Shown piece by piece: positions 4,179 through 6,643 of a stretch of DNA of 38,742 nt. The stretch is from Sphingobium sp. (GTDB taxonomy: Bacteria > Pseudomonadota > Alphaproteobacteria > Sphingomonadales > Sphingomonadaceae): the NCBI GenBank assembly GCA_013911745.1, contig JACESO010000020.1, positions 1 through 38,742 on the forward strand. Direction: 5' to 3'. The position numbers were made by a program, and so were the translations under genes. A model generated the notes under the pieces. That model was not told where the DNA came from. It ran no database searches and saw only the letters and a program-made list of their open reading frames with translations. The first letter of the stretch is position 1. The number at the start of each line of letters is the position of its first letter.

Positions 4179-5576
4179 TTGGGCGATGCGGTGGCGGCCG
4201 GACTGCAGGCAATTCACAGCGAACTGCTGCTTTTCGCCATGGTCGGCCTGTGGATCGGCGGCATCGACGATCTGCTCATGGACCTGCTTTTCCTTGCGCG
4301 GAAATATTGGCGCGACCTGGCTATTTATGCGCGCCACCCGCGCATGACCACCGCCACCCTCCCGGCCTCGATCGAACCCGGAACCATCGCCGTCTTCATC
4401 CCCGCCTGGCGCGAGGCCGATGTGATCGCGCCGATGCTGCGCCACGCACTCAGCCAATGGCAGGACGCGCGCTACCGCATCTTTGTCGGCGTCTATCCCA
4501 ACGATCCGGACACTATCACGGCACTCGCCTCCGTGGCGGAAGGGGAACCGCGCATCGTCGTCGCGGTCAATCCCCGCCCCGGCCCCACGACCAAGGCCGA
4601 CTGCCTCAACACGCTCTGGCGGGCGATGGCCGCGTGCGAGGCGCGGGAGGGCGTCGCGTTCAAGGCGGTGCTCCTCCACGACGCCGAAGATGTCGTCCAT
4701 GCCGATGAGATCCGCCTGTTCGACTTCATGATCGACCGCTTCGCGCTCGTCCAATTGCCGGTCCTGCCCCTTCCCGGCCGCGGCGGCTGGTTCAACCGGG
4801 CGATCGCCGATCATTATTGTGACGAATTTGCCGAGTCGCACGGGCGGCTACTCACCGTGCGGGAGGCGCTTGGCGCGTCCATTCCCTCCGCCGGGGTCGC
4901 CTGCGCCTTCGAACGTGGGATATTGGGGCAGCTGGTAGACGCCCGTCACGGCGGCCCGTTCGATCCCTCCTCGCTCACCGAAGATTATGAGGTGGGTCTG
5001 CGGATCAGCGACATGGGTGGACGCGGCGTGTTCGTGCGGATGGGCGACGGGCGCGGCGGACTCGTCGCAACCCGCGAATTCTTCCCCGACACGCTGCACG
5101 AAGCCGTGCGGCAGAAGGCGCGCTGGATGGTCGGCATATCGCTCGCGGGATGGGACCGGCTGGGCTGGCGCGGCGGCCCCGCCGAATGGTGGATGCGCAT
5201 CCGCGACCGGCGCGCGACGGTAGCGGCGCTGGTCCTGTGCGCCGCCTATCTCTCCTTCATCCTGTGGGGCGCGATCCTGTTGATCGGGCTGCTGATCCCG
5301 GTTCCGCCGCTTCACGTCTCGCCTTTCATGGAAGGACTGCTCACCGCGAACGTCATGCTGATGACATGGCGGATGGTCATGCGCGCGCTCTTCACCGGCC
5401 GGGTCTATGGCTGGCGGCAGGGCCTGGGCGCAATCCCGCGCACCGTCATCGCCAATTACATCGCTATCCTGGCCGCGCGTCGTGCCATTTTCCTCTACGG
5501 CAGGTCGCTCTTCGGCAAGCCGCTCCGCTGGGACAAGACCAGCCACCGATTCCCCGACATACAGGCCGACGCATGA
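4179..5576 (+). CDS. NfrB-like membrane glycosyltransferase (GT2)
   Basis: A 465-residue family 2 glycosyltransferase of the NfrB type (phage N4 adsorption protein B). An N-terminal hydrophobic segment lies near residues 15-30. The GT-A domain starts around residue 68 (VFIPAWREADVI) and carries the acidic motif HDAEDVV (Asp168, Asp171), the TED motif (268-270) and QKARW (312-316) of processive polymerising enzymes. Two membrane segments follow (about 347-374 and 385-403). It probably makes a cell-surface polysaccharide from a nucleotide sugar. E. coli NfrB is much longer and has a C-terminal c-di-GMP-binding MshEN-type region, which is absent here. The start is a TTG with a weak GGGGGC site; GTG at 4191 is an alternative. 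The stop overlaps the next start (ATGA). Confidence 0.82.
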   Translation: MGDAVAAGLQAIHSELLLFAMVGLWIGGIDDLLMDLLFLARKYWRDLAIYARHPRMTTATLPASIEPGTIAVFIPAWREADVIAPMLRHALSQWQDARYRIFVGVYPNDPDTITALASVAEGEPRIVVAVNPRPGPTTKADCLNTLWRAMAACEAREGVAFKAVLLHDAEDVVHADEIRLFDFMIDRFALVQLPVLPLPGRGGWFNRAIADHYCDEFAESHGRLLTVREALGASIPSAGVACAFERGILGQLVDARHGGPFDPSSLTEDYEVGLRISDMGGRGVFVRMGDGRGGLVATREFFPDTLHEAVRQKARWMVGISLAGWDRLGWRGGPAEWWMRIRDRRATVAALVLCAAYLSFILWGAILLIGLLIPVPPLHVSPFMEGLLTANVMLMTWRMVMRALFTGRVYGWRQGLGAIPRTVIANYIAILAARRAIFLYGRSLFGKPLRWDKTSHRFPDIQADA

Positions 5577-6643
5577 CCGGTGCCGTCCACAGCCGCCCCC
5601 TGCGCTTCCTTCTGCTCGTGATGCTTGGCTGGGTCGGATTGCGCGTTGCAAGCGAGCAACTGCTCCTTGTCCGGCCCACGCCCGCTCCGGTTGCGGCCGC
5701 TTCCCCTGCTCCTGCGGCCTGGGCGCCGCGCGCACGCGCGCACAGCATCACCCTTGCGCACGTCCCTACCGCAGCGCTGCTTCCGCCAGCCCCCGCATCG
5801 GCCCCTGGGCCTTCATTCAACCGCCCGGCCACGCCTCGGCAGTTCGAATCCGGGCACGAGCCTGACGCCAGGATCGACCTCCTGCAGTTCATCCATTTTT
5901 CGGACGGTTTCGCCAATCGCCATTATGGGACGGGCGACCTCGACATCGCCGCATTTCCCGTCACGGCTTCGCCGCCCCCCAGCCTGTCCTCCGCGCCGGC
6001 GCAGCACCGGTGGCGGGCCAGCAGTTGGGTGCTTTGGCGCGACGGCAGCGGTCAACCACCGGACGCCGCGTCGGTCGGCCGCCTCGGCGGATCGCAGGCC
6101 GGCATCCGCGTCGACTATCTGCTGTCCGACCGGGGATCGTCGCGTCTGACCGCCTATGGCCGCCTCACCGGCGCGCTCCAGCGACCGGCCGCGCCCGAAG
6201 CGGCAGCGGGCGTCGCCTTCCAGCCTGTACGCGCCATCCCCGTCACCATCGCCGCCGAACGCCGCATCGCGCTTGGCACCGGAGCGCGCGACGCCAATGC
6301 GATCACGGCCGTCGGCGGCTTTGGCCCCACGCCGATCGCAAAGGGGCTGGAGGCGGAAGGCTATGCGCAGGCCGGCGTCGTCGGTTTTCGCCATACGGAC
6401 CTGTTCATCGACGGCAAGATGTCGCTCCTTGCCCCGGTGCAGGGTGCGCCTGTCCGCGTCGGCGCGGCGCTTTCGGGCGGCGCACAACCGGGCGTCAGCC
6501 GCCTCGACGCCAGTCCCGAACTCCAGCTGCGCCTGCCCCTCCCCAACGCCAACGCCCGCCTGTCGCTCGAATGGCGTCAGCGCATCGCCGGCAACGCCCG
6601 CCCGGCGTCCGGGCTTGCCCTGACGCTCGGCGCGGATTTTTGA
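5573..6643 (+). CDS. NfrA C-terminal-domain-like outer membrane protein
   Basis: A 356-residue protein translationally coupled to the NfrB-like glycosyltransferase (overlap ATGA at 5573-5576). It has an N-terminal hydrophobic segment (about residues 11-27, signal peptide or anchor) and a Pro/Ala-rich linker (about 33-90). The remainder has alternating beta-strand character (RVDYLL, RLTAYGRLTG, AYGR/AEGYAQAG, RLSLEWRQRI) and ends in Phe, as outer-membrane barrels do. This resembles the C-terminal domain of phage N4 receptor NfrA, without its long N-terminal TPR region. It likely serves as the export partner for the glycan made by the upstream enzyme. Assignment rests on family resemblance plus the gene pairing. 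Confidence 0.65.
   Translation: MTGAVHSRPLRFLLLVMLGWVGLRVASEQLLLVRPTPAPVAAASPAPAAWAPRARAHSITLAHVPTAALLPPAPASAPGPSFNRPATPRQFESGHEPDARIDLLQFIHFSDGFANRHYGTGDLDIAAFPVTASPPPSLSSAPAQHRWRASSWVLWRDGSGQPPDAASVGRLGGSQAGIRVDYLLSDRGSSRLTAYGRLTGALQRPAAPEAAAGVAFQPVRAIPVTIAAERRIALGTGARDANAITAVGGFGPTPIAKGLEAEGYAQAGVVGFRHTDLFIDGKMSLLAPVQGAPVRVGAALSGGAQPGVSRLDASPELQLRLPLPNANARLSLEWRQRIAGNARPASGLALTLGADF

Follow-up and report, generated by a model that had tools for sequence, protein, structure and literature searches.

The stretch of DNA analysed here (the window) comprises 38,742 nucleotides of a Sphingobium genome that is available as 2.89 Mb in 147 contigs and is 81% complete. Its forward strand carries a pair of overlapping genes, one for a compact NfrB-type glycosyltransferase and one for a partner that ends in an NfrA-type barrel; we compared the pair with 66 named relatives, the majority of them Sphingobium. 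The features of the locus are as follows:

4179..5576, forward strand: compact NfrB-type family-2 glycosyltransferase (GT), 465 aa, TTG start, NF011307
4680..4691, forward strand: DAED (the DxD motif), codons 168-171; the site-A serine recombinases of relatives cross over at about codons 169-174
4824..4859, forward strand: codons 216-227, intact in the window, where relatives have integration site B
4977..4985, forward strand: TED motif, residues 267-269
5112..5126, forward strand: QxxRW motif (QKARW), residues 312-316
5529..5555, forward strand: WDKTSHRFP motif, residues 451-459, soon after which the protein stops
5573..5576, forward strand: ATGA overlap of the GT and partner genes, 4 bases, the same in 58 of 66 relatives
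5573..6643, forward strand: NfrA-type barrel partner, 356 aa
5594..5662, forward strand: N-terminal helix of the partner, residues 8-30, probable inner-membrane anchor (conservation and model)
5663..6010, forward strand: Pro/Ala-rich linker of the partner, residues 31-146 (alignment and model)
6011..6640, forward strand: predicted 12-stranded outer-membrane barrel of the partner, residues 147-356 (profile homology, model and fold matches)

Downstream of the pair, between 6700 and 8375 in the window, there are genes for a TauE-type permease and an Alph_Pro_TM protein; similar ORFs are found at this place in many relatives, which suggests a conserved envelope gene cluster.

With 659.5 bits over residues 2-464 against NCBIfam model NF011307 (PRK14716.1-5, glycosyl transferase family protein; cut-off 431), the GT is a member of this family, from which we saw no difference and whose name gives no specific function. 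The full NfrB model (NF008411) gave 355.1 bits, below its cut-off of 1170, and Pfam matched two GT2 families and nothing else. The DxD, TED, and QxxRW motifs of NfrB are all present, at the residues listed above, and are invariant in the alignment of the intact GTs (47 of 47); the sequence shares 34.8% identity with E. coli NfrB over 483 aligned columns. A PDB sequence search with the GT as query returned no match at E up to 0.1. In fold comparison, the structure model (mean pLDDT 90.3) came closest to PcManGT, a mannosyltransferase by its title (6yv7; Z 26.2 over 320 residues, rmsd 3.5), and then to hyaluronan synthase (8snc; Z 23.3 over 379 residues, rmsd 4.2) and to BcsA (4p00; Z 21.8 over 397 residues, rmsd 4.3). 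Given the title of the top match, polymer formation is a prediction, and the GT could instead add single sugars to an envelope acceptor, with the barrel, which is small in the model, serving as a porin or receptor. We consider this unlikely, since TED and QxxRW, which are signatures of processive GTs (PMC8669469), are retained, the two polymer synthases align over 379-397 residues, and the GT is coupled to an NfrA-type barrel.

The protein terminates at residue 465, six residues past WDKTSHRFP, whereas E. coli NfrB has the corresponding WDKTTHDFP at 470-478 and runs on to residue 745. The residues named for c-di-GMP binding in E. coli NfrB (PMC8669472), L490, G491, L505, L509, L518, and G519, lie directly downstream of that motif, and the MshEN domain found there by Pfam (542-628) lies beyond them. 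We found no Pfam MshEN match in the window GT at E up to 1, the protein stopping upstream of the region, and the sole MshEN match in the source genome (at 81% completeness) is in a putative GspE-type ATPase, named from its sequence. Direct c-di-GMP control through an MshEN-type domain therefore appears, from the sequence, to be absent from this GT, although indirect control may exist. These results agree with the first-pass annotation of the window, which had described a translationally coupled NfrB/NfrA-type pair whose GT has complete catalytic motifs and lacks the C-terminal c-di-GMP-binding region. NfrB forms without MshEN are already known in print, since 1,705 of 1,841 NfrB homologs were reported to have the domain (PMC8669469, section 11).

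Elsewhere in the order the end of the GT varies. Six relatives outside the family of the window (L075, L178, L182, L185, L188, and L189) have a tandem LGxxL...ALxxQ-like tail after WDKTxH that resembles E. coli NfrB, extending by a rough count about 65-73 residues past the motif in all of them except L075. Pfam did not call MshEN in the five of these six relatives that were scanned, so we use "c-di-GMP-type tail" for them as a statement of motif likeness. Other members of the order outside the family, L073, L074, and L176 among them, likewise have a short GT. Inside the family, we observed a second, longer NfrB-type gene beside a separate partner in a PF13283 region at L193 and L194; Pfam called MshEN in both of these second loci, at 28.7 and 33.1 bits (cut-off 23.1).

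The partner matched no family in Pfam or NCBIfam at E up to 1, including PF13283 (NfrA_C) and the TPR families of Pfam, and PF13283 was also not found in the source genome at E up to 0.001. Kinship with NfrA was seen by profile comparison: a profile of 63 partner barrel domains aligned to one of NfrA C-termini (E. coli NfrA and ten alphaproteobacterial PF13283 proteins; an eleventh, L082, was left out for its wrong reading frame) over 207 columns with a probability of 94.1% and an E-value of 1.3e-7 (a single comparison), almost to the C-terminal end of both, while 20 column-shuffled controls reached at most 0.49%. The PF13283 score differs among other partners: L073, L074, and L075, which lie outside the family of the window but within its order, have TPRs and reach 76-106 bits, L078, L080, and L072 score 12-18 bits, and L079, L062, and L147 score nothing. 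The AlphaFold2 model of the partner (mean pLDDT 74.7, pTM 0.60) places a helix at residues 8-30 and twelve strands at 147-355, with a linker of low confidence between them; from residue 171 onward the block pLDDT values are 84-96. Solved outer-membrane barrels lead its fold matches (top Z 13.2 with 4rl8, 199 residues, rmsd 4.0), which point to a barrel in the model and not to its function. The model, the fold comparison, and the profile homology together support an NfrA-type barrel, predicted to lie in the outer membrane, at the C-terminus of the partner. The NfrA_C homology proposed at first thus fails at the level of Pfam and holds at that of profiles.

The partner had also been described as keeping only a barrel-like C-terminal part; the barrel stands, but the "only" does not, as there is in addition a conserved N-terminal helix and a linker of 102-150 residues (17.3% Ala, 15.6% Pro). 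P9, R11, W20, and R24 are invariant in the alignment of 63 partners (63/63), and column entropy averages 1.50 bits over residues 9-26, 3.00 bits over residues 27-130, and 1.58 bits over residues 131-356. In a wider and more diverse alignment of 26 sequences R24 remains invariant and W20 nearly so. A helix as conserved as the barrel would not be expected of a cleaved signal peptide, and we therefore favor an uncleaved helix that is probably an inner-membrane anchor; in that case an inner-membrane tether may hold the barrel, by analogy with what has been proposed for PelB. It is also conceivable, though we hold it to be the less probable reading, that the partner is an ordinary exported outer-membrane barrel, which loses its helix, a signal peptide of unusual conservation, by cleavage and whose linker lies untethered in the periplasm. 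The hydrophobic stretch is short and contains an arginine (R24), E. coli NfrA has a classical signal sequence (PMC8669469), and residues near the end of the helix in some partners could, as read off the sequences, suit signal peptidase; against cleavage are the four positions without exception in 63 partners at an entropy as low as that of the barrel, and the persistence of R24 in the 26 more diverse members.

The pair is widespread among the relatives of the window. We found the GT in 93 of 94 genomes of the genus and the partner in 90 of the 91 examined; the GT match adjoins the partner in all 30 first loci (30/30; as its 3' part only in six). Among the 66 named loci, 65 have a GT match and 58 have the 4-base overlap (the sequence of L131 begins within the partner, and the GT of L123 is split). 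In L159 the GT comes in two parts that overlap in sequence (residues 11-258 and 216-461) and are separated by about 2.6 kb; a TauE/Alph_Pro_TM set lies nearby on the opposite strand, and this is possibly a case of assembly or duplication. Across the order, NF011307 was found in 181 of 246 genomes at E up to 0.001 (140 above the cut-off), and PF13283 exceeded its cut-off in 34 of 246, only six of which belong to the family of the window; across the class it did so in 11 of 289 genomes. Order relatives elsewhere retain the c-di-GMP-type tail (by motif likeness), the TPRs, or both. The compact pair is thus the usual form in this family of bacteria and not an odd truncation, so that the initial interpretation was partly right: it correctly saw a coupled pair without the c-di-GMP module, but the arrangement is no local oddity and the partner is more than a barrel. 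The same data bear on whether the compact GT is decaying from NfrB into a pseudogene, as its missing C-terminal region and its interruption in 16 of 93 genomes (see below) might be taken to mean. This is very improbable and is already contradicted by catalytic motifs that do not vary among the 47 intact GTs, by the occurrence of one equivalog across the order (181/246 genomes), and by the confident GT model.

UDP-ManNAc is the proposed substrate of NfrB. An Epimerase_2 (WecB family) protein is encoded in the source genome and in 93 of 94 genomes of the genus, the same 93 that have the GT; the remaining genome (G090), which has neither, is only 78% complete. This co-occurrence fits UDP-ManNAc as the substrate of the GT only weakly, because the WecB family is widespread (11 of 14 control genomes). 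We propose that the GT2 enzyme polymerizes a sugar nucleotide, for which UDP-ManNAc would by analogy be the likeliest candidate, and that it moves the growing polymer through the inner membrane with no direct control by c-di-GMP, since the module appears to have been lost at an exact domain boundary. The N-terminal helix of the partner would stay in the inner membrane near the synthase, the Pro/Ala-rich linker would span the periplasm in place of the TPR scaffold of NfrA, and the 12-stranded barrel of the model would be the exit for the glycan in the outer membrane, although it is narrower than the 16-strand barrel of PelB (PMC12141448). On sequences and models, then, we think it reasonably likely that the pair is a minimal envelope-spanning glycan synthase and exporter derived from the NfrBA system, free of direct c-di-GMP control and probably tethered to the inner membrane.

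Comparison across the genus revealed what is invisible from the window alone: phages and other mobile elements have integrated repeatedly in the synthase gene, and the partner is nearly always left whole. The GT gene is in two pieces in 16 of the 93 GT-bearing genomes (about one in six), and the junctions, which we read at the nucleotide level in 15 of the 16, fall at four places. Site A, at about codons 169-174 and thus at the DxD codons, is used in G033, G069, G035, G056, G004, and G019; G004 was assigned by protein match only, its 5' part being on another contig, and G019 has a 78-residue recombinase remnant at the left junction and its right junction near codons 218-225. Site B, at about codons 216-227, is used in G616, G065, G077, G011, G050, and G044, with inserts of 39.8-47.9 kb except in G044, in which the right part of the GT begins only near codon 340. 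Site C, at about codons 199-215, is represented by G060 (pieces on two contigs), and G089, G083, and G070 have IS1595 elements at about codons 150-161. Outside the genus, the gene is broken at about the site-B codons in G221, where the pieces are 644 bases apart, and in G253, where they are on two contigs, and G267 has an IS1595-type element near codon 130. Since these splits cut the DxD region or part it from TED and QxxRW, the enzyme is predicted to be inactive in the genomes split at sites A, B, and C or by IS1595. We did not count as insertions the adjacent or overlapping two-piece GT matches in G240, G257, G281, G308, G101, and the second locus of G310, nor G135, whose pieces are on two contigs; G073, which is a contig edge, was not counted as interrupted but was kept in the denominator.

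Among the named loci, IS1595-type transposases lie within the GT gene at L096:4812-5906, L104:4612-5676, L215, and L221; the elements of L096 and L104 are in opposite orientations and have a passenger ORF of 157-158 aa in common. A known self-splicing intron at the break was considered and dropped, as Rfam at gathering thresholds gave no match in four interrupted loci.

The recombinases at sites A and B are large serine recombinases, with Resolvase and Recombinase domains in all eight that we scanned (8/8), and the two types share only 20-24% identity within the genus. All six members of the type-B clade (at least 68% identity to the query) are at the GT gene, and the next ones, at 52% or less, are elsewhere; similarly, all five type-A recombinases (at least 63% to the query) are at the GT gene. 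A type-A relative in G022 (L223:2475-4184; 59% identity to the query and 72% to that of G004) lies at another place in the chromosome of a genome with an intact GT, which speaks against a strict one-site rule for type A.

At least three of the inserts are prophages: that of G065 encodes a terminase, portal, tape measure, endolysin, and primase; that of G069 a terminase, portal, head protein, tape measure, and tail fibre J; and that of G060 a terminase, head protein, and portal, together with a tyrosine integrase (on L124, taken as G060). With one protein scanned per genome, a single tail or endolysin match was obtained for each of G616, G011, G077, and G050. We do not call the elements of G056 and G035 phages, because none of the five proteins scanned had a structural phage match (one belongs to a family of unknown function). 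In IMG/VR, the type-B recombinase is found on three contigs at 62-87% identity (a fourth match is at 26%); two of these (L228 and L230) have a GT fragment beside the recombinase, and the third ends 18 bases past the match. The type-A recombinase had two matches only in IMG/VR, at 25-26% identity.

Our main control was the adjacent partner, 356 residues long, which is split in 2 of 90 genomes (G069, and G055 across two contigs), as against 16 of 93 for the GT (Fisher p 8e-4, a guide only, as species are not independent). Because the linker varies, many partner matches cover the conserved C-terminal half only, so that a break in the linker could be missed in this count. We relied on the partner because the neighboring DUF3422 gene is a weak control: it has a match in 52 of 94 genomes, of which 29 have a copy of at least 68% identity (none split), the remaining matches being more distant paralogues or short copies of plasmid type.

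We think the integration pattern is rather likely to be neutral, the gene being dispensable, conserved, and present in one copy, a target that several recombinases can use, with nothing gained from loss of the glycan. There are known cases of serine-recombinase elements within a gene, such as skin in sigK (PMC5025042), the sequence around site A is well conserved (89th percentile among 30-base windows), and the type-A relative of G022 sits elsewhere; but several unrelated types of element converge on one gene, the IS1595 insertions are in a poorly conserved part (12th percentile), and site B is at the 53rd percentile, so conservation alone is no explanation. Since the E. coli Nfr system makes a phage receptor (PMC8669469; PMC8669472) and integration here is repeated, the analogy suggests that loss of the glycan can benefit an integrated phage, although a neutral attachment site is more likely than such a benefit. 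In its furthest form, which we regard as improbable, the compact Nfr glycan would be a sphingomonad phage receptor, and temperate phages and other elements would have come, repeatedly, to integrate in this gene because doing so removes the receptor and shields the lysogen, making a glycan switch that is reversible where an element is still able to excise; the pair would also be a new exporter design, in which a short disordered linker connects the outer-membrane barrel with the inner membrane.

We found no report of this gene pair or of the integration pattern in the open-licence literature; the interruption of the synthase gene by phages and mobile elements across a genus is new. The pattern makes it testable whether temperate phages gain from attachment sites that remove a host receptor, and, with interrupted and intact relatives in one genus, strains are ready for comparison. 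Provided that the tether is real, an envelope-spanning polysaccharide exporter can consist of two genes, with a linker in place of a TPR scaffold, and would offer a simple system in which to study the passage of polymers through the periplasm.

The closest known system is NfrB-NfrA(-YbcH) of E. coli, the N4 glycan receptor system, which shares with the window pair the gene order, the overlap, the GT motifs, the barrel homology by profile, the 34.8% GT identity, and a WecB-type epimerase in the genome. It differs in the C-terminal c-di-GMP region of NfrB, which the window GT lacks, and in NfrA, in place of which the window has a partner without a TPR match and with a conserved N-terminal helix and a Pro/Ala linker. 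In addition, no epimerase was found among the ten neighboring ORFs scanned in the window. The third gene of the E. coli system is ybcH; the next genes in the window are TauE and Alph_Pro_TM. For the insertions, the nearest parallel is skin in sigK (PMC5025042), which likewise involves a large serine recombinase and an element within a coding sequence; unlike skin, a single glycan-synthase gene is the target of two recombinase families, a tyrosine integrase, and transposons, and there is no evidence of programmed excision. For the partner, the parallel, drawn by description, is PelB of Pseudomonas aeruginosa, whose 22 N-terminal apolar and aromatic residues, without a cleavage site, may form an inner-membrane helix, so that PelB, with its outer-membrane export barrel, may bridge both membranes (PMC12141448). 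In PelB a TPR scaffold forms this bridge and the barrel has 16 strands (PMC12141448), whereas the window partner has a linker and a narrower barrel of 12 predicted strands.
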